Shown here piece after piece: positions 1,895-26,832 of a stretch of 64,000 bases of DNA. Under the pieces are notes generated by a model. It was given only the letters and a program-made list of their open reading frames with translations. It was not told where the DNA came from and searched no databases. Where the stretch lies: assembly GCA_948474755.1 (NCBI GenBank), contig CAOLHI010001655.1:124001-188000 (forward strand), in the 5' to 3' direction. Source of the stretch: Ctenosaura bakeri (lineage: Eukaryota > Chordata > Lepidosauria > Squamata > Iguanidae). Both the position numbers and the translations under genes were made by a program. The stretch's first letter is position 1, and every line of letters begins with the position of its first letter.

Positions 1895-1895
1895 C

Positions 1896-3808: not shown

Positions 3809-4821
3809 ACGATCCCGTGCTCGGTACCGTCCTCGTCGCGGCCAGGAAGGAATCCACCCGTCGCAACTATCAATACAAGTGGCGACGCTTCCTGACCTTC
3901 GCTAACGAGAGGAGTGAGCCGGTATCGCCCGCGGGGCTCTCGACCGTCCTGCACTTCCTCCTGCACCTCCGGCAACAGGGCCTGGCGTTTCCATCCCTGA
4001 AGGTGTATCTCTCCGCGATCGTGGCATACCAACCGCCACGATCTGCTGCCTCGGCCTTCTTCAGGAACGATACCGTTAAGCGGTTCCTGAAAGGACTTCA
4101 TCATCTCTACCCGCCGGTATCGCCGCCGCTACCGCCGTGGTCCCTCTCGCTGGTGCTCTCGCAGCTGACGAAGCCGCCCTTCGAGCCGATGGCGACCTCG
4201 GATGACAGGCTCCTGACAATGAAAACTGCCTTCCTGGTAGCGGTGACCTCAGCGAGGCGAGCGGGTGAGATCACAGCTCTTCGTTCCGATGAGCCCTTCA
4301 CGGTCTTCCACAGGGACAAGGTGGTCCTGAGACCTGACATCTCGTTCCTGCCAAAGGTGGTGTCCAGTTTCCATCTCAACCAGGATATCATCCTGCCTGC
4401 CTTCTTCCCGAACCCGACGACACCGTTGGAGCGGTCCCTCCACTCCCTGGACGTGCGTCGGGCATTGGCTTTCTACAAGGACAGGACTGCTTCCTTCCGA
4501 CAGACGCCGCATCTCTTTGTTTGCTATGGGCGACGTCGGAGGGGCCTAAAAGTGTCCACCCAGCGCTTCTCCAAGTGGGTGGTGAGGACTATTGAACTGG
4601 CGTATGAGCTTGCGAGGAAGCCTCCGCCAGTCCTGCTTCGAGCCCACTCCACCAGAGCGGTGGCTACTTCTGCGGCCCTCCTGCGAGGAGTTGACCTGCA
4701 TGAACTCTGCCGTGTGGCGACCTGGTCCCAACCATCGACCTTCGTGCGCCACTACAGGCTCGACTGCCGGTCGCGCAGAGATGCCCGGTTTGGACGTGAG
4801 GTGTTGGCTTCCGTGCTGTAG
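3760..4821 (+). CDS. DIRS tyrosine recombinase (YR)
   Basis: This is the C-terminal ~350 codons of a long open frame. The upstream part of that frame only overlaps the RNase H ORF and is not meaningful protein. The true start is not fixed, so it is placed in the overlap before the stop at 3808. An N-terminal SAM-like DNA-binding region begins around AARKESTRRNYQYKW. The catalytic fold shows the first Arg in the TSARRAGEI motif, the AHSTR box (His-x-x-Arg) and the nucleophile Tyr in TFVRHY. These residues match the Arg-His-Arg-Tyr tetrad of tyrosine recombinases. By family, the enzyme inserts circular DIRS cDNA without target duplication. The frame is intact from 3808 to the stop at 4819-4821. 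Confidence 0.87.
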   Translation, partial: SGPATPGPPCLEDIALDDPVLGTVLVAARKESTRRNYQYKWRRFLTFANERSEPVSPAGLSTVLHFLLHLRQQGLAFPSLKVYLSAIVAYQPPRSAASAFFRNDTVKRFLKGLHHLYPPVSPPLPPWSLSLVLSQLTKPPFEPMATSDDRLLTMKTAFLVAVTSARRAGEITALRSDEPFTVFHRDKVVLRPDISFLPKVVSSFHLNQDIILPAFFPNPTTPLERSLHSLDVRRALAFYKDRTASFRQTPHLFVCYGRRRRGLKVSTQRFSKWVVRTIELAYELARKPPPVLLRAHSTRAVATSAALLRGVDLHELCRVATWSQPSTFVRHYRLDCRSRRDARFGREVLASVL

Positions 4822-5193: not shown

Positions 5194-7200
5194 CATTTTT
5201 CTGTATTCAGTCCTGATGATAATTTCTTGTCACAAGTACAGCTTATGCATCAGGACAACAAAATGTTGTGACATACCAATTTCTTTAAAAGAGATCCATA
5301 GTTTTTCATGATCTATACAGCCAAAAGCTTTGCTATCATCTATAAAGCACAAGCTGATTTTCTTCTGAAATTCTTTGGTATGCTCCATTATCCAAGGTAT
5401 ATTTGCAATATGACCCCTAGCGCTTCTTTTTCCAAACCCTGCTTGGACAGCTGGCATGTCTTGCTCCATATATGATAAAAGTCTTTGTTGTAGAATTTTG
5501 AGCATCACTTTACTTGCTTGAGAAATTAATGCAATGGTCCACCTGCAATCTATGGTGTCTACTTTTTGGGGGACTGGATTGTATATTGAGCATTTTCAAC
5601 CTGTCGGCCATTTCCCCCCCATATTTGCTGACAGATTTTAGTTAGACTAGACTAGATTCTGTTGCTGTAGCTTTAAGCAACTGAATTGGTATGCCATCTG
5701 TTCCTAGTGATTTATTTCTTCCAAGTGCTCTGAGTAAAACTTCCACTTCATTTTCTAACATTGTAGTTTCACCTTCAAATGATTCTTCCTGGGATGAATC
5801 TGTCATTTTTTCATCTCTTGTATACAGTTCTTCAGTATATTTCCATCAGCTTTTTATTTGTACTCGGTCTTGTGCATTCCTCTGCTGGTCGTACAGCATC
5901 CCCATTCTAGCTTTAGATTTCCTTTAATTTCTTAAGTCTTGTGGAAGAAGTTTTTTGTTCTTCCATTTTTTGGTGTTACTTTTTTTTTTTTACTTTGCAT
6001 TTATTATTATACTAGTTCTCTTTGTCTCTGCACATAAGCCGCTGAACAGTACATTCAGGATCTTGATTCTATTTCTGTCCCCTTTTACTTTTGCTTCACA
6101 TCTGTCATTAACTGCTTGAAGAGTTTCACCTGTCATCCATTGAAACTTCTTCTCTCTCTCTCTCTCTCTCTCACTGCAGATAGTCTTTTTGCATTCCTTC
6201 CTGTCTATGTCCCTGGCTTTAATCCAGAGTCCTTCTGGATCCCATTCAATTAGGCTTAATAGTGCAAATCTATATTTCTATATTATCTTTAAATTCTATG
6301 GAGACATTCTTCAAGTTGTATTTTGGCACAATGGTTCGTTCAGCGTTCTTCTTTAGCTTTACTCTCATAACTAATTTTTGATAGTTGCTGTTCATGGTCT
6401 GTGTCACAATCTGCTCCTAGTCTTGTTTTTGCAAAAAGGATAGAACTTCTCCATCTTCTGGTTCCAATTATGTAGTCTATTTGATTTCTATATTGGCTCT
6501 CAGGTAAGGTCCGCATATGCAGTCAGCTCTTTGGTTGTTTGAAAAATGTGTTTGTCATAAACAAACTGTTGGCTTTATAAAATTCAATCAGTTATTGCCT
6601 TGCTTCATTTCTTGATCCTATGGCAAATTTGCCTCCAATCTTTTATTCTGTTCTTTCACCTACTTTTACATTTCAATCACCTATGAGTAACAAGAAATTC
6701 TATTTTGATGCACAATCAGTTTCTTTCAATCTTTCAGTTTCTTCTTCTGCTTCTGCAGTTGGAGCATAAACTTGGATTATGGTTACATTGATGATTTTTC
6801 TCTGAAGTCTCCTTGATATGATTCAGTCAGACTTTGCATTCTATACTTTGACTGCTTTTGTTACATCTCTTCAAATTATTAATGCCACCCCACTTTTTCT
6901 TAGACTTTGATTGAGTGAAACGCTTCTCCCTCAAACTGTCCCATTCCTATCCATTTTAGCTCACTCACCCCAAGTACTGCAATGTTTATATGCTCCATTT
7001 ATTGTTTTAATATGTCTAGTTTCCCCAGATTCATGCTTCTCACATTCCATGTTCCTTTAACATGGGTTGTACAGCTTCGCATTTCCCTTTCATCTCTGAA
7101 CATGTTAACAGCTGAATATCCTTTTGGCTTCAGTCCAATAGCATCATTAGCCACAGTGCTACTTGTAGTTGACCTCTGCTGTAACTTAGTAGCTTATTGA
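5194..7200 (-). pseudogene. RTE/BovB LINE, endonuclease and partial RT, decayed
   Basis: Minus-strand translation starts with an RTE-type endonuclease N-terminus (about 6900-7090: GTWNVRSMNLGKLD, then ELKWIGMGQFEGE). It continues through the RNQIDYIIGTRRWRSS block (about 6440-6510) and enters the RT (5230-5508), where GHIANIPWIMEHTKEFQKK and SLCFIDDSKAFGCIDHEKLW match BovB. Many stops and frameshifts break it. The RT is cut off at 5194 exactly where the DIRS element ends, so the DIRS inserted into this LINE. The rest of the RT should lie beyond the left edge. Sequence up to about 7440 may be the element's 5' UTR. Confidence 0.8.
6150..6173. repeat. (CT)n microsatellite
   Basis: A short CT run sits inside the decayed BovB LINE. 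Confidence 0.9.
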
Positions 7201-7602: not shown

Positions 7603-7715
7603 AGTGTGTTATTTAATGGGGAGCCTTCTACCCAAGACCATTCACTTGTAAAGGGAACGGCAGTCAGTCCAAGCCATAGCAGTTGTCCCCCATCAGTCAT
7701 ACGCTGTATGAAGTC
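7603..7715 (-). CDS. C-type lectin receptor exon, middle of CTLD
   Basis: 113 nt: 37 codons plus two bases. The acceptor is cttatttcttggcag and the donor is CT|gtgagt. It opens with DFIQRMTDGG, carries the CTLD signature LLWLGL, then SEWSWVEGSPLNNT. This corresponds to the WIGL...W-x-W-x-dGs region of the lectin fold. An N-N-T glycosylation sequon sits at the end. It starts in phase 0 and so follows directly from the EEL end of the previous exon, exactly as in KLRB1-type genes. It ends in phase 2, so one more exon carrying the final two cysteines is required. None was found between here and the left edge, which is filled by BovB and DIRS sequence. Confidence 0.87.
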
Positions 7716-7824
7716 CTGCCAAGAAATAAGTCCATAGATTTTCAGGAGATGCGCTTATACATTAACAGAGGCATAGTCTGTACATATCCAACAGATCATC
7801 ACGGCAGAGTGTGTATGCTATTCA

Positions 7825-7965
7825 GGGCTTGGAAAAGTAACTTTCCTGGACTACATGTCCCAGAACTCCCCAACAAGTATGTCCATGCTATATTAGGGAT
7901 TCTAAGGAAAAAAAGTAACGTTTCCAAATTCTGGTATGAATTCTCTTCCCTTAGGCTTCTATACC
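7825..7965. mobile_element. Short palindromic MITE (lectin intron)
   Basis: The arms read cttggaaaagtaactttcctggactaca and, inverted, gggattctaaggaaaaaaagtaacgtttccaa. This is a decayed palindrome of a type common in squamates. It lies between the two lectin-domain exons. Confidence 0.55.
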
Positions 7966-8729
7966 GCAGCTACTTCCAAGGGAATCCACAGTGCTGAACT
8001 ACTTTAAAGAAATTGTGGAGGAAAAAAGTAATGGGGTAGTGGTGTAAGGGGTGCCCTGAGATGGAACCAGGGTTCCTTAGAAACATAGGGTGCTGTGAGA
8101 GGTCACCAGGGGTTTTGCAAGAGATTATGAGTGATTTTTTTTAAAAAAAGCTGTAGATATAATAATTTTTATGCAGATATTTCTTGACTTGAAAATTATT
8201 TCAAGGATTGCTCCAGGATAAAAATATAAAAATGGCTGGCTCAGAATTTGCCATAACCTTTTTTTTTTTTTTGGAGTAGTGAGCAGCTTCACAGGGTGCA
8301 AAGACTGCACAAATGCCATTTCCTACTCAACCACTCATTCCCTGCAGGCTGCACTTTGACTTAATCCAAAACTAGAAGTGGCTAGAAGGTCACATATAGG
8401 CCATTTCCTTTTTGGCGGGAAGTGTTGGCAGGGGAGGCACAAAGTGCAGGGTGCATCATTTTAGCCAAGAACAACAGATGTGCAATTCTCTGTTTTTCTA
8501 ATATATCTAATATTTTCTAATATAAATCACGCTGCCTCAGAGAAGATCCCATGGGAACCAATTTTGGTTTCTTTCCAGCATCAAGTCAAAACATGGCCTT
8601 TTATGAAAGCCCTGAGGGTCTAATTTAATTTTTCCCAAAATGAATGCATCAGTGGTTTAACCTGTTTTATCCTTTTAAACTTTTTTAACCTATTATATTG
8701 CTTAATATGCTTTAGATTATATAAGTCTA

Positions 8730-9115
8730 AATACCCACCAACTGTCCTGATTTGGCAGGAGCAGTCCTGATTAATCCTTTGTTGTCCCACTTTTTCAACT
8801 GCTTTAAACATTTCCCAGTTTCTCTTTTCTCCTCCCACTTTCCCCACTTTGTCCTCAGTTTATCTTAACTGTAGCAGACTAAGTTCACAGTGCAGAAGTA
8901 GTTTGCACTCAGTGAACTCAGCAGCGGGACAGAAAAGGGCATGAAATCTTGCCCTTCCCACTAGGCTCAGGCAAAAGCAAACTGCTGCGGCCTCTCCTAG
9001 CTTGTGTTTTCTTGCTCGTTAATAACTTTTGACATCTTTACAGCATTCTGATGTTGCTTAGCTGCACATGTCCCAATCTTCATCTCTGAAATGGTGGAGA
9101 GAATGTAAGTTATTT
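8730..9115 (+). repeat. Unclassified interspersed repeat, copy 1
   Basis: It shares an ordered series of blocks with 11150-11520: tcctgatt...ggtcctgattaa-like start, ttgtcccac, cccagttt, agtttgcactca, cccttcccactaggctcaggcaaaagcaaact and catgtcccaatctt. No coding, TIR or tail was recognised. The two copies are clearly diverged, so the family is old. Confidence 0.6.
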
Positions 9116-9208
9116 AAACATATCATATCTGGAATTGTTTTACATTGTTTTCCCTGTACAACATATTTGGATCCCATGACATAGGCAGGATGAAAAAAAA
9201 GTTAAACA

Positions 9209-9210
9209 AA

Positions 9211-9241
<31 letters not shown>
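9209..9241. repeat. (GT)n microsatellite
   Basis: A run of about 15 GT units. The Cys-Val reading frames across it are artefacts. Confidence 0.95.
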
Positions 9242-9358
9242 ATGAAGAGACTCTGGGGGGTCACAGGAATGACCTTGATGATCCACATGTGGCCAATGGG
9301 CTTCATTATTCATTATTCCTCCCATACCAAGATGCATGTGACATAATAGTACACCATG

Positions 9359-9558
9359 GGCCTTCCTGCCCTATACTGTTATAGTGCTGTTATTCCACTT
9401 TCAACATCCTGTGGAATTCTGAGGTTTGTAGTTTCCTGAGGCCAAAGAGCTCTCTGGCTGAAGCTTCCAAATGCCCCTCCCTAAACTACAAACCCCAGGA
9501 TTCCACAGGATGTTGAAAATGGAATAACAGCACTATAACAGTGTAGTGAGGAAAGGCC
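9359..9558. mobile_element. Palindromic GGCC-ended MITE, copy A
   Basis: A long imperfect palindrome: ggccttcc...actgttatagtgctgttattccactttcaacatcc, and the same inverted near 9500-9558. The centre contains aaagagctctctggctgaag. It is the first of at least seven copies or fragments of one family in the window. It has no coding capacity. Confidence 0.85.
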
Positions 9559-9559
9559 C

Positions 9560-10140
9560 CACGTTTGAAAGTACAGGGATTGGTAGAGATTATACAGTCA
9601 TTGCCATGGGAATGCACTGAAGCCAGTCCATGACATGTGCCATTGCACGACATCATCACGGTGCCGCCCCTATCACATCCCTAGCCGTCGCGACAGTGCT
9701 CTAAACCATTGCCAGAAAAAATCCAATAATGTGCAATGATTATGTTGCCGGTGGCCATGTGGAAAGGACAGAAGTGCTATCAAGTGCTTTCTTCCTCAGT
9801 GCAACACAGGAAGAGGCCGGCTGCACTGCAGAAGAAAGAAGCATGTCCCAAATGCTACCCATCCACTGGCAGCCAGGTGTGGTGGGAAGCATTTGAGTCC
9901 TGCTTTCATCTCGGCATGGGATCCAGGCATGGTGTGGAGAGGGCCTTCAACATTCTTGTCCTGATCATTTATTTATCATTTATTTTATTTATTGCATTTA
10001 CATGTTGCCTTTCCTTCCATCCAAGGTGGCATATAACTTTTCCTTTAACCTACTTGGTCAGGCATCAACTGCACAGGGAGAAACAGATTCATTCTGGTGG
10101 TGATCGGAGCATGGCTGAATGACATTTCCATCAAATTTGG
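9560..10140. other. Intron sequence with a decayed LINE/SINE 3' tail
   Basis: 9955-10030 resembles the inverted 3' end of an L2/CR1-type element (tttatttattttatttattg...ccaaggtggcatataa). The rest is unassigned. The 128-aa ORF here shows no recognisable domain. Confidence 0.35.
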
Positions 10141-10214
10141 TGGTGGTGAGTGATCAAGGCAGAAGAAATTGCTTAGTTAAGTGCACTTAAGTATAATTAA
10201 GTATAAGTCATACT

Positions 10215-10340
10215 TTCTCAGCTCCAGAGGAAGGAAAATACAACCCCCCTCTGAAGACACCTGGCCAAGAAAACCTCATGATAAGTTCACCTTAGGGCCG
10301 CCGTAAGTCAGAAATGACTTGAAGGCACACAACAACAAGT
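10215..10340 (+). mobile_element. Sauria-type SINE, 3' part
   Basis: It ends in ggccgccgtaagtcagaaatgacttgaaggcacacaacaacaa, the BovB-like tail of Sauria SINEs. The tRNA-like head is missing. It lies about 300 bp downstream (in gene direction) of the lectin 1 exon. Confidence 0.85.
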
Positions 10341-10646
10341 ATAGGCTTATTTAATTAAGTAGCTGGATTCCAACCAATATCATTTTCTAAGAATTATGGG
10401 CAGTTGTCCAACAGTCCCTTGCCACTGACACCACCGCTTCAGGAAAAAAAGGAATCTGACAGAGTTCAAGTCAGACAAATAATTCAAATATTTGTAAACT
10501 TGAATCATTTATACAACTCTCCTAATATAGATCAGTACAGCATGAAATTGGGATCTTTCAGACAAAGGATTACAGTTTGTTTGTTTTTTGTAACACAGAA
10601 AATGCACAGAGTTGACTATTCAGATCTTGAGGCTATCATTACGTAC

Positions 10647-10801
10647 CAGTTCTTCTTTCTCCTTTATCACTGCCAGCTGAGAAACTTTTGCTGTGCAGTC
10701 ATAGTGACTCTTGTTCCATGTCTGCTTTTCTCTGGAGATCCAGTAGCACTTATCCTCATGGCGCAACCAGGTTTCAGGGCAGAGTTTGCATGTTGAGTTC
10801 T
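10647..10801 (-). CDS. C-type lectin receptor exon, start of CTLD
   Basis: 155 nt: two bases completing a split codon plus 51 codons. The acceptor is ataattcag|AG and the donor is CTG|gtacgt. The peptide begins NSTCKLCPETWLRHEDKCYW, the hallmark C-x-x-CP-x-x-W-(n)-KCY start of a long-form CTLD. It continues with a W, a conserved Cys in HYDCTAK, and QLAVIKEKEEL, matching the usual L-x-x-I-x-x-x-E-E-L end. Two N-glycosylation sequons are present (NST and NKS). The exon boundary at EEL is the conserved one in NK-receptor genes. The overlapping longer plus- and minus-strand ORFs here are artefacts in other frames. Confidence 0.9.
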
Positions 10802-11149
10802 CTGAATTATTTTTTCAAAAAAAGGAGGAGTTGATACTTGATATATTTGAGTCAGGTCTAAATATTGTAAATTTTCCACTCCAATAACTAACCATGTATT
10901 TATACTGATACCAAACTACCTGTAAACCAGCTCACTGAATTAGACATGCTTATTCTTTTCTTTAATTCAGCTTTTCCCCTTTGTTTCCAAAGGAACATAT
11001 TTATAAAAATTGTTAGCTGTAGTCCTCTTGAATTAAAGAAGGACTTTTTTCCCCTAGATAAGTGGTATTTTCCTGTTGCTGACTTTTTGACGTATGATCA
11101 GCTCTTAAAATCTAAGAATTAGCAAGTAGCAGTCACTGTTTTAATGAGA

Positions 11150-11520
11150 TTTATCAAGGAAGCATAGAAAAGTATGCTATCCTGATTTAGCATGGGTAAT
11201 CCTGATTAACCTTCCGTTGTCCCACCTTTTTAGTTGCTTTTGAAATGTCCTAGTTTCCTTCTCCCTTCACTTCCCCTCTTTGTTTTCAGCTTATTTCAAT
11301 AGCTACAAACTGAATTCAGAGTACAAAAATAGTTTGCACTCAACTCAGGAGGACAGGAGGGGAGGAGACAGAGTGTTGCCCTTCCCAGTAGGTTCAGGCA
11401 AAAGCAAACTAGTGCAGCCTTTTCTAGCCTTTTTGTTCTTCTTCATTAATAGCTTTTGCTATGATGCTGCAGGCCACTCATGTCCCAGTTTTTAATCTGT
11501 GAAATGTTGAAGGGTATGGA
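11150..11520 (+). repeat. Unclassified interspersed repeat, copy 2
   Basis: This is the partner of 8730-9115, same orientation, with the same order of blocks and many small indels. Confidence 0.6.
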
Positions 11521-11607
11521 AAAGTTGGTAAGAGATTAACCTGAAAATACAGATCATAAGGACTGCTATTTCTTTAAAATGCCAAGTTGTTGTTTTTTTA
11601 CAGTCAA

Positions 11608-11836
11608 ATCCTATGCAGTACCCTAAAGGCACCAGATTCTGTCTGATCTTAGAAGCTAAGCAGGATCAGTCTTAGTATATGGATGGGAGACTGCCAATGA
11701 CTACCACATGATATAGGCTGTAATTCAGAGGAAGGAACTGGCAAAACCACCTCTGAGTATTCCTTACCTAAGAAAACCCTTTGACTTTCATGGGGTCACC
11801 ATGAGTCAACAGGGACTTGAAGGCACATACATACAA
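11608..11836 (+). mobile_element. 5S rRNA-Sauria chimeric SINE
   Basis: The head (gcaccagattctgtctgatcttagaagctaagcagg...tggatgggagactgcc) is 5S rRNA-like and includes the internal promoter region. The body and tail (gtcaccatgagtcaacagggacttgaaggcaca) are Sauria-type. It is not a functional 5S gene because it is diverged and fused to the SINE body. Confidence 0.85.
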
Positions 11837-11862
11837 GCTGATCTAGGAGCCTTTTTAACTAG

Positions 11863-12041
11863 GGCCATTTCCACACTAGACTTCTATAGCGCTATTATTC
11901 CACTTGCAACATCCTATGGAATCCTAGGGTTTGCAGTTTTGGGAGGGCCGCCCAGCCCCTCCTGAAACTGCAAACCCTAGGATTCCATAGGATGCTGCAA
12001 GTGGAATAATAGTGCTATAGCAGTCCAGTGTGGAACAGGTC
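11863..12041. mobile_element. Palindromic GGCC-ended MITE, copy B
   Basis: Arms: ggccatttccacactagacttctatagcgctattattcc and its inverse. The centre is short (gggagggccgcccagcccctcc). The flanks are tag on the left and taa on the right. Confidence 0.85.
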
Positions 12042-12097
12042 TAAGAGATGAGGGATAAATGCGGCAATTAACCCAGTAAATAAAGCTGTCCCATCTT

Positions 12098-12314
12098 TGA
12101 GCCAGTGCAGTGTAGAGATTTGAAATATTGAACTAGGATTCCAGGAGACCAGGGTTCAGATCTCTGCTCGGTGATGGAAAACCATGGGGTGACCTTGGTC
12201 AAGTCCTTAGGTTCAGAAGAGGGCAATGGCAAACTTCCTCTGAATGACTCTGGCAGAAATAAACTTAGGACAGGATCATCTGAAGTCAACTTGAAGGTAC
12301 ATAATGACAACAAA
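12098..12314 (+). mobile_element. Sauria-type SINE, nearly full length
   Basis: A tRNA-like head (gagccagtgcagtgtagagatttg...agaccagggttcagatc) precedes the tail ctgaagtcaacttgaaggtacataatgacaaca. It is diverged. Confidence 0.8.
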
Positions 12315-12389
12315 TCCCATCTCTCTGGAAAGAAAAGCTTGGCAAGCTTTGATAAAGCCAGTCAATGACAGCCTTTGGAATGCTGTCAC

Positions 12390-13020
12390 GGGGGGCCCAT
12401 CAGGGAAAGAATACAATGCCAGAGCTTTTCTGTGAGACAGATTGATAGGGTTATACAACTCCTGTGTTGCAATGGCTCCACTGGCTGCCAGTGTGTTTCT
12501 GGACACAATTCAAAGTGCTGGTGATGACCTATAAATCCCTAGATGGCTCAGATCCAGGTTATCTGAAAGACCGTGTTCTCTATTACGAACCAGTCTGGGC
12601 TTTGAGATCTGCTGAAGAGGCCCTTTTCTCTGTCCTACCACCTTCACAGGTGCATCTCGTGGGAACAAGAGAGAAGGCCTTCTCAGAGGTTGCCCCCAAG
12701 CTCTGGAACTCCCTTTCTAGAGAGGTCATATTGGCACCCTCCCTTCTTTCCTTCCATAGACAAGCAAAGACATTTTTATTCCGACAGGCATTCAATATGT
12801 GATTATGGTATGTCTGATAAAAGGTGGTGGCTATTGTCAACTGTTGAGGATTTATGAATGTCTGAGTTTTAATTATGTGTTTTAACTTTGCTTTAATTTT
12901 TATTTGATCAATTAACTTGTGTTACAACTTTTGTATTCCATGATATTTAACTATTTTTTAAAAATTATTGTAAGCTGCTTTGAGTCCTTTTTTCCTGAAA
13001 AAGGGTATAAATAAAGATGA
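12390..13020 (+). pseudogene. L2-type LINE, ORF2 C-terminus and 3' end
   Basis: The 112-codon frame 12464-12802 reads LHWLPVCFWTQFKVL, then TYKSLDGSDPGYL, and later EKAFSEVAPKLWNSL, the typical C-terminal block of L2 LINEs. The 3' end has the taagctgctttgagtcc...gggtataaataaa tail. It is 5'-truncated, as most LINE copies are. Confidence 0.8.
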
Positions 13021-13033
13021 CGATAATGATGAC

Positions 13034-13034
13034 G

Positions 13035-13067
<33 letters not shown>

Positions 13068-13068
13068 T
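13034..13068. repeat. (ATC)n microsatellite at LINE tail
   Basis: A run of atc triplets follows the L2 tail directly, so it probably grew from that tail. Confidence 0.9.
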
Positions 13069-13069
13069 A

Positions 13070-13664
13070 AGTCAGACATAGAGACAGGACTGATGAGGCC
13101 AAATGAGAACGTTAGTCCAATAGGAACTGAGCTTGTGGGAAGAATTCAGTAAAAAGTATTACTTTTTATAAGCTAAAATATTGTATTGTGTATGGAGCAA
13201 GCATATTGCTAGATGTTTGACTTGTGTGTTATACAATGCATCTTTGCTGTTCTGTTGTTTACCTTATGTCACGCGTTCCCAAACTGAACCTACCAATAAG
13301 CAGATCTGTCTGTCTGTCCAGTGTCCTGTTCCCTTTGGGGAGGGATCTTTAAGGTAAAAGGCCAACATAAGCTATACGAGTCCACAGGCTGGAGCTGCAG
13401 GACAGACCTAGAGAAGGGATCCATCACATCCTTTTCACAAAATGTTTGGGATAAGAAAAAGGATGGAAGCATCAGCAGAGAAGGATTACAAATGGAGGGT
13501 GACAACATCTCTACCCTCACCAGATTCAGCACTTGAAGAAGGATGGTGACAACATGAACAAAACCTCAGAGGGGCCACAAAAGCATCGAAAATTGGGCTC
13601 TTTATCCAGCCCACTGACTTCAGCATAGTTTGCAAAAATTATTTGTTTGTTTGTTTGTTTGGTG

Positions 13665-13718
<54 letters not shown>

Positions 13719-14005
13719 GGATTTTAACTCCCAAAATTATCCAATTACCACAGCCACTGAACTTGCTAGCTAGGGGATTCTGAGAGCTGTAATCAGAAAG
13801 AGAGAGGGAAGGAGGGAGAAAGAGAGAGAGAGAAAGATAGGGATGGAGTACTATTACAAGCCCTGCAGAAATCAGTGGAAAATTAAGCAATGTTTACATC
13901 TCTCTTTTGGCACTGATGGGACTTCCATGTACTTGATTCCATCTGGATCATGCCAATACTGCTTCAAACTGAACAGGTGGAGGTCACTGAAAACATTAAC
14001 GTTAC
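13070..14005. other. Intron with (GAT)n microsatellite
   Basis: A (GAT)n run of about 18 units lies at 13664-13718, with a (TTTG)n run just before it and a purine-rich tract at 13796-13840. A short MITE-like piece (actcccaaaattatcc...gattctgagagctgtaatc) follows. Poly-Ile/Asp reading frames here are artefacts. Confidence 0.7.
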
Positions 14006-14167
14006 CTGTGGAGTGATTACCATATGATTTGCACAGATATTGTAGCAAAGCCTGTTGATCATCCAGCCTGATCTTCTGCTGACTCCTGTTCCTGGGTGCT
14101 TGGCTGCTTGTTCCTTGGAAGGCATGGATCTTCTCAAGACTATTCAGAGATTCTTTGGTCCACCAAA
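14006..14167 (-). CDS. C-type lectin receptor exon, extracellular stalk
   Basis: 162 nt: two bases, 53 codons and one base (phase 1 at both ends). The acceptor is tccctcttttaaag and the donor is ACAG|gtaacg. The peptide begins WWTKESLNSLEKIHAF, then a Gln/Arg/Asn-rich run (SSQAPRNRSQQK), then RLDDQQALLQYLCKSYGNHST. Heptad-like Leu spacing suggests a short coiled coil. A Cys near the end could pair in a dimer or with the first CTLD cysteine. Sequons NRS and NHS are visible. It was found because both flanking exons demand a phase 1/phase 1 exon; there is no long ORF here. The family has a variable stalk exon in this position. Confidence 0.8.
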
Positions 14168-14619
14168 CTTTAAAAGAGGGATTTTTGTGTGTGAGAGTTA
14201 AAATAACTTACAAACCTAAAACGACATACGGCACCTTCCATGGAAATACAGAAACATTACTTCCAACCAGTCCTTTTCCCTGGAAGTGCAATCTTTTGCC
14301 CATGGAGAATGTAAGACTGTACCTGTGCTAAGGAGTTTGACACCATTTTGGCTGACGTGGCTCTGTCCCATGGCACATTGGGATGTGTAGCTTCTTGAGG
14401 TGTATAGAATTCTCTAGTAGAGATTCTAAGCATCTCACTGAATGACACAACACCAGATTCTGTAGAACAGAGCCACTGCATTTAAAATGGTATCAGAGTG
14501 ATATAACTGTACAGTCTAGATACACTCAAAGTTGTTAACAGCCTGGTTCCCCCCCCCAGTCTTCCCCTGTCCTTCTGTTCAAGAAAGGGTGATAGAAATT
14601 CTTCAAATGGAAACTCTTT

Positions 14620-15316
14620 GGCCATTTCCATATTATATGCTGTCAGTGCATTGTACCATTACAATCCTAGCATTACAATCCTGGCATTGCCACTTGTACA
14701 GTTCTGTTGGATTAGGAATAGTCTTTTCTGCACTCTTCCACCTTAAATGTATGAGTAGCAGTATTGCCACCATTGTTCCTTTCACACTACCACATCCTTG
14801 GCCACCCCCTTACCCCATCTTTACCTTGCTCCACTACCCCTGATTGGTGGTTTTGTTTTTCTTTGGAAGCTGTACTAGCACATCAATGTTGTAGCACCAG
14901 GACATGCCAGTACGCTATTGCATTTTCACATTACAATGCTTAAAATGTATTTTAAAAAAATAAAAAGTTTTGACTCAAAGGAGAAAATAAACACAGAGAA
15001 GTAATAGATTTTGAAGTTACCATGCCATGGGAGTCACAAAGGGAGGGACAACCTGGGCATGCCCACAGCCCACCCACTGCTGGATCCATCTATCCTGCTA
15101 TCTAGTGCTATTATGGTACCGCACTGAGCCAGCTGAGCAGACTGAAGTGCTAAGGAGGTTCTTACTGGATTTTTTTCTGGAAATAGAATGCAACAGTATA
15201 GCGATGCTTGAGGGTGGGATAGCAGCTGGATAGTGATGACATAGTGTGCTAGCACAACTCCTGGACCAGAAACAACCTGCTGCTATTGCATTATAGTGAC
15301 GTTGTGTGGAAATGGC
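14620..15316. mobile_element. Possible larger non-autonomous DNA element with GGCC-type ends
   Basis: It starts ggccatttccatattatatgc and ends cgttgtgtggaaatggc, so the ends are inverted copies similar to those of the palindromic MITEs. The interior has tRNA-free, non-coding sequence. No transposase was seen. Confidence 0.4.
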
Positions 15317-16055
15317 TTCTGTCTCCACACAGACATGAGCATTCCCTCTTTGGATTTACTGCCTTCTCCATGAGGGAAGAGATAACAGAGGGGATGGGTC
15401 TAGGCACTTTCCTCTTCAAGTACAGAAGAAAGCAAAGTACCACCTTGAATGCTCTTTAAAGCACCATAGCCACACCTTTGCAAACAATTTGAATTCTCTT
15501 CAGAGAGGGCTTGAATCACTATTACTTAATTGGTTTTGTGGTTTCTCTCACATTCCTTTGAGGGCGTGAGAGAAATAATTTCCATTATCTAAAATGAAAG
15601 ATGTTTCTGTTGCAGAAAGTGAGAAAAAACTAACCCTGCTGATTATGAAATTAGCATAACCGCCACTGTTGCAAGCGGTGTAAAAATGTGGCTGCTCTGA
15701 GACATAAGCTCAGACATCGATGTTGAGTAAGGCACACTTTTTTCCCCATTCGCCAAGTCTACTTTGGATATTTGTTTGTTTGTTTGTTTCCCAGAACCTG
15801 GAAGCAACTAGTTACAAACAAATCATTACTTACAATTAATTCTGTTCTGTACTAACTGAGTTGTATTATTACTACAAGTTACTTATAGTAAATTAATAAC
15901 ATAACAAGGGATAGCATCCCTCCTTTTGCAGTGTAATAGTTTTAAGTTATCTTCATTGTTATAAGAGTAAGGTGGTCTAAGTGCTTGGATATGTTTTGTC
16001 TCATAACTCAGTAGCTTATAGAAATCTTATAGAAAGTAACTAAAGATAACTATGA
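15317..16055. other. Unassigned intron
   Basis: No gene or named repeat was recognised. A (TTTG)n run occurs at about 15770-15790. Confidence 0.5.
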
Positions 16056-16830
16056 AGTTATTTTCATAGAATCATAGAAATGTAGAGTTGGAAGGGACCA
16101 CAGGGGCCATGCAGTCCAACCCCCTGCCATGCAGGAACACCCTCAAAGCACTCCCGACAGATGGCCATCCAGCCTCTGCTTAAAAACCTCCAAAGAAGGA
16201 GCCTCCACTACACTCCGAGGCAGCAGATTCCACTGCCGGACAGCCCTGACTGTCAGGAAGTTCTTCCTGAGGTTCAGGTGGAATCTCCTTTCCTGCAGCT
16301 TGAATCCATTGCTCCTTGTCCTGGTCTCTGGAGCAGCAGAAAACAAGCCCTCTCCCTCCTCTACATGGCTTCCCTTCAAATATTTAAACATGGCTATCAT
16401 GTCCCCTCTTAACCTCCTCTTCTGCAGACTAAACATACCCAGCTCTCTAAGTCTATCCTCATAGGGCATGGCTTCCAGGCCCCTCACCATTTTGGTCGCC
16501 CTCCTCTGGACTTGGTCCAGCTTGACCATGTCCTCCTTGAATTGGGGTGTCCGGAACTGGACACAGTATTCAAGATGAGGTCTAGCCAAAGCAGAGTAAA
16601 GTGGTACCAGTACCTCCTCCATCTAGACACCATACTCCTATTGATGCAGCTGAGAATTGCATTGGCTTTCTTGGCTGCTGCATCACACTGCTGACTCATG
16701 TTCAGCTTGTGGTCTATGAAGACTCCTAGATCCCTTTCACACGTACTGCTATCCAGCCATGTGTCCCCCATCCTATATTTCTGTATTCCATTTTTTCTAC
16801 CTAAGTGTAGGACCTTACACCTTGGAGTAA
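16056..16830 (-). pseudogene. CR1 LINE, ORF2 C-terminus and 3' end
   Basis: The minus-strand frame 16143-16622 is 159 codons without a stop: [16 protein letters not shown], then [25 protein letters not shown], then [26 protein letters not shown]. This is the classic CR1 C-terminus. The 3' end has the atgattctatgaa-type motif near 16065. It is 5'-truncated. Confidence 0.92.
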
Positions 16831-17834
16831 TGAGAAAAATTTTATAAAAAAACAAAGACTATTTCAAACTGTAAACTGTTTTTTTAAAAAATGTAGCCTA
16901 AAGTCTAACTACTTTTAGCAGTTTTGGAACTATAGTAGTAACTAACTCACTTTAAAAGTAACTTTCTTTTCTTCTGTCTTTTACTTCTTAGAAATATTTC
17001 ACAATTCAAAAATACACTGGTCTTTTTCTTTCCAGTTTTCTGAATGCAAAATGGCTGCCAGTGTTATTTGCACAGTGCTTTTAACAGGGTTAGGGGAAAT
17101 GACTGAATGGTAGGAGGGGAAAAGTGGAGAAATCAGGATTCCTCCCTCCATTCCCAATGCAGTGACATTCTTTTCTCAGTTCACATCTGCCCATGGATTG
17201 ACACATGTGTTCAGATTCCTCCCACTGCCCATCAGCTGCCAAGCCCTGTTGCTAGCAGTTTACTGATGGGAAAAGAAGGAAGTGGGACGCAGTTCATAAC
17301 ATGGAGAAGGAGGTGGTCTCAGATCAGTTGCAGGGGGAGAAATTAGGGTATGTTCTCAAATGGAATGCACTGAGATGTTCATTCCCCCAGCCAGATCTTC
17401 ATAGTCTGACAGTTTGACAGCTGCCAGGTGGTGGAAGGTTTTTTGACAGAGTATGTGAATAAAAGAATAGCTCCATGCCCAGTCCAGAAGGGACTCACTT
17501 GTGTGTAATCTGCACTTATGCATGCATATAGCACTAGCAGGATGCTAGCCTATGATTATTAAAGTTTGTAATCTTCTGAAACTGGATCCGAAAGTAGAGC
17601 TTTAGTAGTAAGAATTTCAGGGAGAATTTTTTCTTATTTTTTTGAGAGACATAATCTTAAAAAATTATTAATTTGAGACTCCGTTATTAGTAGGAATGTT
17701 CAAATAATGTGCTACGTACATTTTTAAAATGAATTTAACAAATTCAGTCTCAGATTTAAGAAAAATTACTCTTTTGGCTGAGGCATCTGTTACTGCGGTC
17801 TAGGCCTATTTGGAGATAGCACCAGATATCACTT
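16831..17834. other. Unassigned intron, AT-rich
   Basis: No convincing feature was recognised. Confidence 0.5.
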
Positions 17835-18697
17835 TGATATCATAATTCGGCTCTCTTTCACCACCCCACTCCACGTCTTTGTGAGCCCCCGGACAAGCAC
17901 GAAACTAGGCTTGGCACTTATCTGCTGAAATATTCTCAAACAATACAGGCAAGCCAGACATAGCCAGATCGCCGCTTCAGGGACCTCCCCAGCAAACACC
18001 ACATTATATATGTGCACTACCTACAAGAGGCTCCCTGCCCCGAGCAGGCAACTTGACAAAAGCTGAGCCATCCACTGTCAAGCGTTGCACATTTACATAC
18101 TGGCTACACCTTTGTTAATTCGGCTCTGATTCCATCATGCTAAATTGTGACCTTTCCGAGACATTGTCTCGCACCCAAGACCCATTGTTCTCCCCGAGTA
18201 AGGCATAGCCTGCAGTCACACTTCTCCCTATAAAAACCCCTGATTCCAAGACCTTCCTCGGATTGCTCCCAAGTTCCAGATTGCCTTGCTGCTGCATTGC
18301 TTGACGAGCTTCCCCTCAGCTCCACGTGCTGAGATACACTGAACCCCAGCATCGCTCTCTATCTTCTTTCTGGGCTCCAGGAATAGGTTTCGTATCACCC
18401 GAATCAACTATCCCTCTGAAAATCCCGCTATCATACTCACACCTTTATTTTCCTTAGTTATCTGTGTGCATGTGTTGCTTACATTGTGTGCCTGTATTTA
18501 ATAAAGATCATTCATTATTTTCAATGCGGTCTGCTTCTTGACTTGGCCTGACCCTGTAAACACTGGGTTACAAGATCCTGCTGCGTTACCCTGCCTCTTG
18601 TTTTGCCAACTAATGCTCTTGACTAATTTCCCCCAACTTGTGTAATTGTAAGGTTATTTAGGTGTCCCTCCCGGGACCCCCAGTAAACAGGGTAACA
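17835..18697 (+). mobile_element. Solo LTR, copy 1
   Basis: It begins tgatatcataattcggc and ends cagtaaacagggtaaca (TG...CA). A TATA box (ccctataaaaacccc) lies near 18228-18240 and a polyadenylation signal (aataaag) near 18500. The same family occurs at 33880-34701 and inverted at 62866 onward. No internal coding region is attached, so it is a solo LTR. The retroelement class is not resolved. It lies in the intron between the transmembrane and stalk exons of the lectin gene. Confidence 0.75.
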
Positions 18698-18713
18698 CAT
18701 CATTCAAATGTTA

Positions 18714-18768
18714 ATCAAGGCTGACCCTGCTTAGCTTCCAAGATCAGACAAGATCTGGTGCCTTAGGA
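18714..18768 (-). mobile_element. 5S rRNA-like SINE head, fragment
   Basis: Inverted gctgaccctgcttagcttccaagatcagacaagatctggtgcc matches the internal promoter part of a 5S-derived SINE. Confidence 0.7.
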
Positions 18769-19385
18769 AGAACTTATTTTATTGTAAGAGCTGTTTGACA
18801 ATGAAGTAGAATGCCTCAGAGGATGGTGGAATGGAGATCTTCAAACAGAAACCCTTTGCACTCCACCCTCCCAACCCGCCATATGGATGAGAGAAGAACA
18901 GGACAGCAACAACAGTTCTGCATGACATTGTAATGGTCACGTTTTTCCATCCCTGGGTGGCACAATTGTTGAGTATATCATTGACAGGTTTTCCCTGTCA
19001 ATGGTCCATGATCTGTGCTGCTATCCTGCCATGCCCCTGCACTTACCTTACCTATGGAGGCCCTGGAAGCACATTGGAGGTGCTTCCAGCCCCAGCACAG
19101 CCTGGGAAAGTGCCTGGCTGTGCTGCAGAAGGAAGAGGCAGGGCCATCGTGCTTCCTTCTGCAGCGAACAAGCCAGGGTAGAGGGGAGCATTGGCACCCA
19201 TGCTCCCATCCCTGCAAAGCTGCTGACGGGATGATGCTGGGATAACCCTGGGCCCAGGTAAGTGCAGAAAGGTCCAGAGGTGGGACTAGCATCTTTCAAG
19301 AGATCCTTAGCTGTGTATTCCTGCATGGCAGACAGTTGGACTAGACTGACCTTGTGGTCCCTTCCAACTTTATGATTCTGTGATA
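18768..19385 (+). mobile_element. CR1 3' end split by a ~430-bp insertion
   Basis: CR1 tail blocks lie at 18768-18850 (aggaagaacttatttt...agctgtttgacaatgaag) and 19288-19385 (tgtattcctgcatggcag...tatgattctgtg). The intervening DNA begins ccctttgcac and ends gtgcagaaaggtcc, an inverted pair, so it may be a non-autonomous DNA element. Confidence 0.55.
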
Positions 19386-19689
19386 AACTCAGCAGAGAAA
19401 TGAAACCCATTCTTGTACTGAAGTGTACAGTTTTCAGATTGCTGAAATCTAACTCCTAACTTAAAAAATGCATTATATTAAGGAAAGTGAATATAAACAT
19501 ACTGAGGGAAAGTACACACAAAAATCACGTTGTATTATATTTGGGGAAAACCTTTGCCAAAACTGCACAGGTTAGGACAAGTTCATACAACATCTGTACA
19601 TTTGGGGAAGCATGCACAAAATCATGTATGAATATTCATGCTGATTGGTTGGGGAGATTTTTTCCAGTGTTCATAAAGTTACAGCGTGT

Positions 19690-19908
19690 CTTCTGTATAT
19701 GCGGGGATTCTGTTCTAGGAACCTTCACATAAAACAAAAATCACGAATGCTCCATCCCATTATTGTCAATGGACTCAGCATACATGCACTTGTGCTGGCA
19801 CAGATGTGCACATGGCTTCAGGTGACCTTGCATTCATATGTGCAGAGGCTGCATCAGTTTTGTATCCTGAATCCTTGTGAATGGGGAGGACCACTGTACT
19901 ATAGAGTT
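19690..19908. mobile_element. Tigger/pogo-like MITE, decayed, copy 1
   Basis: Contains ctgtatatgcggggattctgttctaggaacc and ends gaatggggaggaccactgtac, resembling the tacagt-ggccctcc ends of Tigger-type MITEs. Confidence 0.5.
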
Positions 19909-19909
19909 G

Positions 19910-21210
19910 GCAGTGTCCCAGTAGTACATCTGACTACTATAGAACTGGTTCTTCAGAATCCTTTCTTTTCCAGAACAAGTAAGCCAAGAACAAACCTGAT
20001 TTAGGATTTGGTTTATTAAAAGTGCAACAAAAGAAGGATTCCTGTTCTGAAGTCACACTGAACAACACAGAGATGAAGGTTTCCTGGTTTGTTTAGTCAC
20101 TCCCATTTAGTGCTTAGTGGAAATTGTTGGGGGTTAAAGTTTCCCATGGCATTAGCCCTTTGGGGAACTCTATGAAAGCTAAAATTGTAAAGAATTAGCC
20201 TTCTTTTAAGAGAGTTGCAGAGAAAGCATGTCCCAATCTCTGTGCATTTTCCCTGAACTGGAGGCTGACTTGAAAGCAAAAACAAGGCAGGCAGGTTCCA
20301 AATTTAAAAAATTTAAAAGATTTACTAATAAACTTTATAATTACATATCCATTAGAGAAACTAGATCCTAACTAACTAATAAAAGGATTTGGGAAAATAG
20401 TATCTTCATTTTAAACTCACTGACTTCTTGGTGAAAAGGCTAGCATAGAAAGAGAAGTTGCTAGAAACAAGATTGCTAAAGGGAGAGAGTGTGAGTGATG
20501 TGGCCTTCTAAGTATGACCAGTAACTGACACCAGAATGTATCCTGGGTCACATGATCTGGATACAATGGCCAATCATTAACACAGAACAATAGTTGAGAC
20601 TTTAGCTGTGAGACCAGGAAAGGCTTTTCTATTCAAAGAAAATTAACCCTATTCTATCTAAACCCCAGAACAAGAGGGAGGAGAGAGAATGCTAGAATTT
20701 TCCAACAGAAACAACTGAGCAGCATGCACCAGTCAGCATGCTGTTTTCTCAGAATCATACCTATAGTGTCCCAGCACAGATCTGTTTTATTGCATTGGTC
20801 CAAATCCTAATTTTGTGGTGCTGTGACCTAGGAGGCAGCATCAGGGTGGTGAGAATATTATTCTTTAGAATGCACAAGGGTACTTGGAAGCTGACTGTAA
20901 TATTAGGGACTGTCCATCATGCTCCATAAAGCACCCTATGTTATATTATCCTAGCGTATATATCCGATGTTGCCGGGGATTTTATCTTCTCATAGATAAT
21001 ACTTGCTGAAAAGATTTGAGATCCTGTGTCTCTAACTCCCCAAACTTTCTTGTCCATACTTGTAACTTTCCCCCATATTCCCCAATCCAATCTGTATTCA
21101 GAGTTATTAACATATGGAGGTTGGGTTCCTTAAGGAATACACTGCCCTCCTCCTTGCTGCTGGGCCTCATCTCCACAGCAGCTGGCCTATTCAAGACAGG
21201 CAGAGTTGAC
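19910..21210. other. Unassigned intron
   Basis: No recognisable exon or repeat, except AT-rich stretches around 20300-20350. Confidence 0.45.
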
Positions 21211-21211
21211 T

Positions 21212-21290
21212 GAGGCCCAAGAGCTCTCTGGCTAGGATTCTAAAGGTCTTTCCCTAAACTGCAAACCCCAAGATTCCATAGAATCTTCTT
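21212..21290. mobile_element. Palindromic MITE fragment, copy C
   Basis: Only the centre and one arm remain: gaggcccaagagctctctggc...aaactgcaaaccccaagattccatag. Confidence 0.65.
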
Positions 21291-21411
21291 AGGCAGCCAG
21301 TCGTATGAAGTCTTTGCCCGACACAGCCAATCGTATGAAGTCTTTGCCTGTCTGACAGACAAAGAAACTTTGACTTTTATATATTAGTAGATTATGTCTC
21401 AGATTACTCAC

Positions 21412-21513
21412 CCCAGATGCTCAGTGCTGTTATGGCTCCCACTAGAAGGAGAATTGTCATGCATCCACACCCAAGAAGGAACCGATGCCATCGGGGATGT
21501 CTCAGCAGGATAT
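21412..21513 (-). CDS. C-type lectin receptor exon, transmembrane segment
   Basis: 102 nt: two bases, 33 codons and one base. The acceptor is ccattggctcttgtag and the donor is TGGG|gtgagt. The peptide is ILLRHPRWHRFLLG followed by a hydrophobic helix (CGCMTILLLVGAITALSIW). A basic RHPRWHR stretch just before the helix fits a type II membrane protein with cytoplasmic N-terminus. The PRWHxxxL...LLL..A...LS.W pattern resembles exon 2 of KLRB1-type receptors. Phase 1 at both ends fits the tail and stalk exons. Confidence 0.82.
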
Positions 21514-24859: not shown

Positions 24860-26832
24860 AGGGTTGTCGCTTCGCACAGCTGCGAAGAAGATGATCGGTG
24901 AGCAAGATTGGGAGCTTGTCTCAATGCCGGTGAAATGAGACTCATTACGAGACCGACTCCAGCAGTCAGTACCCAAGAAAAAGAGGAAGATCTTTGGAAT
25001 GGAGCTTGGCATGGACGATGCTGATGGGGTCAAGGAGCTGCCATACCTAGCTCAGCTATCAAGAAGCGGGACAAGCTGCACTGTTGTTATGAATAAACAA
25101 ATAGAAGGAACAGCTAACAAGTAAGTTGAAATCTACTGAACCTCAAGAAGGGAGAGGAGGTTTACCTTCGCGATATGGTCACTCTGGACTGGTAAGATCT
25201 AAACAAGTGACTTTGATTTGCTAAAGACTTATCCAGAGTTGGACAGATAATAAAGTTTCACATGGTATTCTAAAGTGACATACTAAAACACGAGGTAACA
25301 CAATTTAATACTGACTTGATACTTAATACTGGCTTCTTTGCTGAAGAATTAGAGTCACCTGCCACATAAGGCTATATAAATTGTCTGGATTTTTTTTCAT
25401 GCCCCAATTTAAGAGACATCGCTAGAACTCTTTTCTTTTGGAAAACTTACTACTTATTATAGCTGAAACCTGGGACATGATATATATTGAAATATAAAGA
25501 AACTTGCAGATTTAATTGTCGATAATCTTGAAATAGAGAGGTGAAGAGTTGAAGAATATGAGAGTGAAGTTAAAGCAGACCTGAAGTCAGATGAGAGAAA
25601 TCAGGAATGAGAGTGTTAGAAGAAAAGTGTGCTGGCAGAGAGGAGCGACAGCAGAAACCGTGATGAGATATAGACTGAAGTGATTTAAGACAGTGGAGAG
25701 TTAGAGAGACAGAGACTTTGTAATATAAAATCCAAAGAAGACTAAGTGACAGTCGAGAGGCAGAGAGACAGAAATCTTAAAGTATAGTGGAAGAAGATGA
25801 AGCGACAAAAGAGAGGCAGGGAGATAAAGACTCTAAAGTATAAAGGTTGATGAAGACAACGTAAGGGGGAAAGAAAGAAGAGTTCTGTTGTTACAGGTAT
25901 TTGAGATCATTGAGATCCTCTCCCCCTTTTCTCTTTACCCTTTTTCCTCATCTGGTTAACACATTATATTATGAATGAATTTTGAATGAATACAGAATGA
26001 ATTTTGGTTAAATAATATTATTGAATGTCATTTGATTCTAAAGTATTAATGTGTTAAATTATCACATTATATAATTTATATATATATTGGAAATCTTAGA
26101 TTATAAATTGAGAGAAATTTCCTAGTAAGGTCTAATTTATTAAGAGGGTCAGTTAATCAAAGTGGAATTGAATTTAATAGTGTAGCAATCTCTCTTGCCT
26201 GTCCTCTCCCTGTCTTTCCATCTGAACCCAACTGTACTGGGGTGTTGATAGTAGCTGATATTAGTCAAGGTCAGGAGATAACAAGGCACTGTCAGTCTGC
26301 TTGTTTATCTAGCATAGAAACATGTTAATATTTTGTGGATTTAACTCTTTGGTTACAGGTTCAGAATTGGGTTTATCATAAGCTATACTACAGTACCACC
26401 TAGTGGAAAACTTGTTATTAACTAAGGTTTTGGATTAATAATTAATTTCATTCCCTTTTATCCCCCCTGTGGGGGGAAAAAGAGGAAGAGAGGGAGAAGG
26501 CAAGGAATTATATTTGGGGAATTAATTAAAGGTTCAAGTAATTAATAAATCAAATATTTGAATAATAATTATAACAATTATATTAATATTTATTTAATCT
26601 CTCTATCTTATATATAAGATTTAGATATAAAATTAATAAATTAAATAACATTATAATAATTAAAATTAATTATTAGATACATAATAATAATAATTAGATA
26701 TATAATAATTAAGAAGAGTTGCTAGATATAGGACAAGAAATTTAATAACTAGGAGTTAAGACTTAATCACTGAATATTTGAACAAATAATCGATAATAGT
26801 AAGAATAATTAGTATTTAGAAAATTAGAGCAC
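24860..26832 (+). mobile_element. L1 LINE 5' UTR-like region with short tandem units
   Basis: This non-coding stretch directly precedes L1 ORF1. At 25678-25858 three related units of about 56-66 bp follow one another, each starting aag(t/c)ga and containing gagaggcagagagacag-like sequence. 26000-26700 is extremely AT-rich. The start is not fixed. Confidence 0.5.

Follow-up and report, generated by a model that had tools for sequence, protein, structure and literature searches.

A putative NKRP1-group receptor gene of the lizard Ctenosaura bakeri with a YxNF motif in its cytoplasmic tail

Introduction

Natural killer (NK)-type receptors of the NKRP1 group, such as KLRB1 (NKR-P1) and KLRF1 (NKp80), carry a C-type-lectin-like domain (CTLD) that is encoded over three exons and is not known to bind Ca2+ and sugar, the EPN/QPD and WND motifs of such a site being absent. 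NK receptors that couple to adaptors, such as NKR-P1C and NKG2D, have a charged residue in the transmembrane helix, and SH2 domains of the Grb2 type take the consensus pY-x-N-x. Here we describe a receptor gene on the minus strand of a 64,000-nucleotide stretch of the lizard Ctenosaura bakeri (contig CAOLHI010001655.1, positions 124,001 to 188,000; the whole stretch is referred to as the window). We put at roughly 0.93 the probability that this gene is a squamate receptor of the NKRP1 group (KLRB1/KLRF-like, C-type-lectin-like), orthologous to genes of other lizards; its predicted tail holds a single tyrosine in a YxNF motif.

Our literature searches turned up little on these receptors in lizards. 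A 2016 review states that the green anole has two KLRB1 genes (PMC5002281). Searches of the open-licence literature returned no report of a tail type with YxNF, nor of the string CYFNF. A functional parallel is the adaptor DAP10, whose YINM motif recruits PI3K and Grb2-Vav1 (PMC3819593). Y-x-N is common to DAP10 and the window motif, and the likeness is one of how the motifs might work; in the lizard gene the motif lies inside the receptor chain rather than in a separate adaptor, and the +3 residue is Phe, not Met.

Results

The window holds five exons of the receptor (Table 1). A first-pass annotation had proposed four of these, and its core held: the four minus-strand exons lie at the ends it gave, read as one open frame of 171 amino acids, and have AG acceptors, GT donors and junction phases of 1, 1 and 0. 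Spliced together, they encode a peptide whose match to Pfam Lectin_C passes the cut-off (E 9.5e-10), in keeping with the proposed CTLD content, and the suggested search against killer cell lectin-like receptor (KLR) proteins returned 4 of 58 candidates, lizard KLR, at E≤1e-3 (best 1.3e-76). The four-exon model fell short in missing exon 1, in lacking the last CTLD exon and, probably, in ending the stalk exon 15 nt early.

Exon 1 joins the helix exon in frame, at a phase 1 junction across a 19-kb intron, and matches Anolis sagrei P0001 at 72% identity (tblastn E 4.6e-14). With the same query, exons 2 to 5 gave tblastn E values of 4.6e-10, 3.9e-21, 1.7e-23 and 5.5e-15. An exon profile, run on 2723 six-frame open reading frames (ORFs) of at least 15 amino acids, recovered exons 4 and 5, its controls, at E 3e-28 and 1.4e-20. 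Two alternative donors would keep the stalk exon in frame; an exon end at 14021 (ATG/gtaatc) yields SYENSTC and drops five residues, while an end at 14006 (CAG/gtaacg) yields SYGNHSTENSTC, like the Sceloporus (SYGNHSTENSRC) and Anolis (SYGNHST...) proteins. Because SYGNHST is found in both P0001 (Anolis) and P0002 (Sceloporus), 14006 is most likely the true end. The resulting five-exon model of 216 amino acids contains no stop or frameshift, has every splice signal intact and is 76% identical to Anolis sagrei P0001, 82% to the shorter Sceloporus P0002 and 61% to Pogona P0003; P0002 and P0003 are longer than the window model by a few residues in the part that links helix and stalk.

The first-pass annotation had also judged chance agreement of the exons unlikely, which a control upheld. 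Across 50 first-order Markov copies of the window, searched with three lizard proteins, the best score was 26.9 bits, below every true exon match (weakest exon with P0001, 51.6 bits; lowest with any of the three proteins, exon 1 with Pogona P0003, 39.7 bits). A chance origin of the exon matches was thus rejected.

Table 1. Coordinates of the receptor exons, the tail motif and neighbouring elements in the window.
Feature	Position	Strand	Description
Exon 1	40662-40545	-	ATG and cytoplasmic tail (MKREALPTRIPCLLEDGQCYFNFRPRQKDQRFQAKSAVQ); donor AAG/gtaaat; phase 1
Tail motif CYFNFRPR	40608-40585	-	Residues 19-26, including Tyr20; CY[FY]NFRPR in 7/9 clade members
Exon 2	21513-21412	-	Transmembrane helix (LLGCGCMTILLLVGAITAL); donor GGG/gtgagt; phase 1
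Exon 3	14167-14006	-	Stalk; donor CAG/gtaacg preferred; phase 1
Exon 4	10801-10647	-	First CTLD exon (CKLCPETWLRHEDKCYWIS...); phase 0 at end
Exon 5	7715-7603	-	Middle CTLD exon (LLWLGL...WSWVEGSPLNNT); donor gtgagt; ends in phase 2
Reverse-transcriptase fragment	5230-5595	-	RVT_1, E 3.1e-7; between exon 5 and the DIRS-like element
DIRS-like retroelement	1-4821	+	Runs off window start; overlapping frames with RVT_1, RT RNase H and Phage_int_SAM_1

Hydropathy of the 216-residue model gives a type II layout with a short tail, one helix, a stalk and a C-terminal CTLD. The hydrophobic helix lies near residues 51-72 (peak 2.31 at 52-70) and, unlike the helices of NKR-P1C and NKG2D, has no charged residue: there is no K, R, D or E between residues 51 and 77. 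In the AlphaFold model of the Anolis orthologue (mean predicted local distance difference test score, pLDDT, 77.8; CTLD mostly above 90) a helix of mixed confidence spans residues 48-93. The window model has five N-glycosylation sequons and a stalk cysteine, C119 (C120 of P0001), that is near-invariant among relatives, and Tyr20 is the only tyrosine before the transmembrane helix. Inspection of Anolis P0001 found no EPN/QPD or WND, in a region that falls mainly in the exon absent from the window. From the way in which NKRP1 receptors are thought to behave (PMC10008955), we infer that the lizard protein would occur on NK or other lymphocytes as a homodimer held by a disulphide bond, presumably through the stalk cysteine. 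Its CTLD would bind a protein ligand of the CLEC2 kind, and it would signal via its own single tail tyrosine, since the membrane span offers no charged residue to hold an adaptor.

The CTLD was compared with solved structures to place the family, because the best 120 of the 191 relatives found in a wider alignment search (E≤1e-8 among 4974 candidates) were all reptiles where named. In a sequence profile search of the PDB, the best single-domain chains were KLRF1 (152 bits), KLRF2 (140 bits) and forms of KLRB1 (115-137 bits), with an NKG2D tandem ranked between KLRF2 and KLRB1; LOX-1 (99 bits), KLRG1 (96 bits), CD94 (86 bits) and single-domain NKG2D (83 bits) followed. Among solved structures, human KLRF1/NKp80 (PDB 8qmd) is thus the closest CTLD by profile among single-domain chains, and it is also the closest by fold: a search with the Anolis AlphaFold model returned NKp80 first (template modelling score 0.94 by target), then NKR-P1B and human NKR-P1. 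The CTLDs of KLRB1/NKR-P1 (human NKR-P1A, mouse and rat NKR-P1A and NKR-P1B) are nearly as close. Frame, Pfam, tblastn, PDB profile and fold matches together support well the proposal that the minus strand carries an NK-type, C-type-lectin-like receptor gene.

An earlier alignment search had returned 35 proteins at E≤1e-5 among 3555 candidates (lizards, turtles and one fragment). Of the four lizard KLR proteins matched by the joined four-exon peptide, three bear KLRB1 names. CTLD trees, on which orthology rests, were built from 53 of 135 sequences (all 32 named lizard rows, Sphenodon, 19 turtles and the window) and from a smaller set of 38. In these the window gene stands beside Sceloporus and Anolis, inside a squamate clade that also holds Pogona, Varanus, lacertids and Hemicordylus, with support of 98/89 in the larger tree, 98/92 in the smaller set and 97/87 without Hemicordylus P0007. 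By these trees, the window gene is the orthologue of genes predicted in Sceloporus, Anolis sagrei, Pogona, Varanus and lacertids, mostly under KLRB1-type names (P0002, P0001, P0003, P0006, P0005, P0012 and P0009; Sceloporus, Anolis sagrei, Pogona, Varanus, Podarcis and Zootoca); compared with them, it lacks the last exon as far as the window reaches. Genes of the NKRP1 group lie in the NK complex, next to CLEC2 genes; searches of the window for other CTLD exons, with lizard proteins by tblastn and with the exon profile, found none. The gene had been called hidden and possibly lineage-specific. Neither description stands: iguanians, Varanus and lacertids already have predicted orthologues, and paralogues have been predicted in geckos, skinks and others.

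The tail sets this clade apart. The window tail does not contain the hemi-immunoreceptor tyrosine-based activation motif (hemITAM), reading EDGQCYFNF rather than acidic-Gly-Tyr-x-x-Leu, nor the immunoreceptor tyrosine-based inhibition motif (ITIM) or AxYxxL, its only tyrosine being that in QCYFNF. It differs in this from both KLRF1/NKp80, where the hemITAM tyrosine occupies the place of a Gln in the window and the window tyrosine comes two residues on (YFNF), and KLRB1/NKR-P1. CY[FY]NFRPR was found in seven of the nine clade members, the window included, and in 0 of the 44 other rows of the 53-sequence tree. Six of the seven orthologues share it; the Sceloporus isoform P0002 begins in the membrane helix, after the tail, which is not readable. 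Across the seven tails, seven of the eight motif columns are invariant against 3 of 30 elsewhere, a count made after the block was seen and with three of the seven rows being close lacertids. Gecko, skink, Elgaria and turtle KLRB1/KLRF predictions share receptor family and layout with the window gene, and their tails, where readable, carry a hemITAM (MEDEEGYxxL), an ITIM (e.g. IVYADL) or an acidic stretch without tyrosine. A pattern classifier applied to 134 fetched proteins and the window assigned 59 tails to ITIM, 18 to hemITAM, 7 to YxNF, 7 to acidic without tyrosine and 44 to other or no usable tail. Its labels are wrong for P0035 and P0108, neither of which is in the trees; P0035 is a fragment with the Pogona exon-1 peptide (CYYNF), called ITIM and outside the seven YxNF proteins. 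On the smaller tree, where 24 of 38 rows were given a state, YxNF against the rest requires one change. Joining the YxNF rows with four squamate hemITAM rows as a clade gave an approximately unbiased test p value (p-AU) of 2.7e-05, which says little because the four hemITAM rows are not one group.

The YxNF tail seems to have arisen from one that once held a hemITAM and has since lost it. We compared five YxNF tails (P0009 and P0012 were omitted as near-copies of P0005), ungapped, with 15 distinct hemITAM and 35 ITIM tails and with 200 shuffles. The window tail scored a mean of 31.4 against hemITAM tails, where shuffles gave 17.2 (standard deviation 1.6; 0 of 200 as high), and fell into one register in 14 of 15; against ITIM tails it scored 16.4, where shuffles gave 15.1 (38 of 200 as high). 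For the Anolis, Pogona, Podarcis and Varanus tails, 0, 12, 1 and 0 of 200 shuffles were as high against hemITAM, and 124, 170, 178 and 68 against ITIM. In the common register the hemITAM tyrosine falls on Gln18 in the window, on Pro in three of the remaining tails and on Ser in one, with the conserved tyrosine two residues beyond; an alternative alignment, in which a small insertion and deletion leave the same tyrosine in place, is possible.

Elsewhere among the relatives, a gecko clade (P0013, P0017, P0024, P0036, P0037 and P0039) retains the acidic beginning of the hemITAM without its tyrosine (e.g. MEDEESSMAL), which looks like an independent hemITAM loss within the lizards. Turtle neighbours in the CTLD tree (e.g. 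P0062 and P0059, P0129 and P0120) bear hemITAM or ITIM tails, which suggests repeated tail exchange among turtle receptors.

Among 20 ORF stretches compared with Pfam, only retroelement-type domains (Table 1) reached the cut-offs; all others had either no match or one below threshold. Beyond position 32000, 12 of 165 ORFs of at least 60 amino acids were put to Pfam, and a short-exon gene is possible there. The retroelement at the window start, which we take to be of the DIRS type, combines a reverse transcriptase (RVT_1) with a tyrosine-recombinase N-terminal domain (Phage_int_SAM_1); GC content is 0.63 in 1-4000 and 0.30-0.45 in the remaining 4-kb blocks. Within intron 1, the AT-rich segment 24000-32000 (GC 0.30-0.34) has plus-strand open frames that resemble, by eye, a long interspersed nuclear element (LINE) of the L1 type (a coiled-coil-like ORF at 26809-27432, others up to 31317), and 0 of 4 tested matched Pfam above cut-off. 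Two near-palindromes in the receptor introns, at 9358-9559 and 11869-12035 (arms of 84 and 79 nt, 87% and 92% complementary), look like foldback transposons.

Discussion

Several observations weigh against an NKRP1-group receptor with a rebuilt hemITAM tail. The IgY receptor, PLA2 receptor and LY75 stood above KLRF1 in the PDB profile search, as did LY75, an NKG2D tandem and the IgY receptor in another search; such multi-domain chains outscore KLRF1 because several domains are summed. Automatic names conflict among the relatives (KLRB1B alleles, KLRF1, KLRF2). Hemicordylus P0007 has a different N-terminus without the tail motif, which speaks against the reading unless, as we suspect, its first exon is mispredicted. 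The common hemITAM register was found in 13 of 15 comparisons for Anolis, 9 for Pogona, 11 for Podarcis and 8 for Varanus, and the Pogona tail, at 12 of 200 shuffles, compares weakly on its own. Several hemITAM tails have an Asn at the position that corresponds to the Asn of YxNF, so this residue may have been kept by descent and not by selection for Grb2 binding. Finally, the last CTLD exon was not found in the window (tblastn; exon profile, best E 0.43), so that the window by itself shows no complete gene. In relatives this exon reads close to LQVTG-x-A-x-x-NSCGMLKG...WICETEALLV. Two of probably three CTLD exons were found: the Lectin_C match spans profile positions 2-65 of 107, the remainder of which would fall in the absent exon, and the window probably holds five exons of six.

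That absence could also mean a decayed or truncated copy, with a retroelement now downstream and the last CTLD exon lost, that makes no working receptor, as the lack of a last exon in the 7602 bases downstream of exon 5 and the DIRS-like element there would allow. We consider this improbable: the five exons are open, their splice signals are intact and their product is 82% identical to the Sceloporus protein, while the search for the last exon ends at the window edge. Less credible again is a myeloid-type CTLD receptor of the Dectin-1/CLEC cluster or LOX-1 kind, outside the NKRP1 group. LOX-1 is close behind in the fold search (rank 15), but the single-domain KLRF and KLRB1 chains exceed it by 16-53 bits in the PDB profile, and named relatives are mostly KLRB1 or KLRF, with the rest hypothetical, unnamed, uncharacterized or plain C-type lectin.

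How an NKRP1-group receptor with this tail might signal can be ranked from motifs: Grb2-type signalling comes out as most likely, followed by a degenerate hemITAM and then endocytosis. Tyr20, in C-Y-F-N-F, fits pY-x-N-x, and Grb2-type signalling through it is a tentative proposal. Our best guess is that the YxNF of Tyr20 would give costimulation, like the YINM of DAP10, and not Syk activation or phosphatase recruitment. A degenerate hemITAM that retains Syk recruitment, with a two-residue insertion ahead of the tyrosine and a Leu-to-Phe change at +3, seems unlikely to us. The window tail is akin to the hemITAM-type tails of reptile relatives, its tyrosine being preceded by two acidic residues and a glycine (EDG), and NKp80's own hemITAM is anomalous (PMC3819593); against this, none of the seven CY[FY]NF tails contains YxxL, and the spacing acidic-Gly-Tyr is no longer kept. 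Rather more doubtful is that the receptor mainly internalises its ligand, with no kinase signalling, through an endocytic YxxPhi signal. Y-[FY]-N-F does fit that consensus with Phe, but YxxPhi requires neither the Asn at +2 nor the RPR, both of which are invariant in the seven tails. That one branch of squamate NKRP1/KLRF receptors rebuilt its hemITAM as an in-chain YxNF, probably for Grb2-type costimulation, is a doubtful possibility; if true, such receptors would signal in a third way, distinct from hemITAM or ITIM signalling and from adaptor coupling.

Genes of this type are known, and their lizard orthologues had been predicted before; any novelty lies in the tail type, and the tail tyrosine in its unusual setting is the most interesting part of the receptor. 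The five-exon structure corrects the earlier model of this lizard receptor gene of NK type and sets it against inconsistently named relatives. The tail also points to a signalling switch within one receptor family, in which related lizard ectodomains carry tails of the hemITAM, ITIM or YxNF type or tails that lack tyrosine, a diversity that makes changes in the signalling polarity of NK receptors testable.

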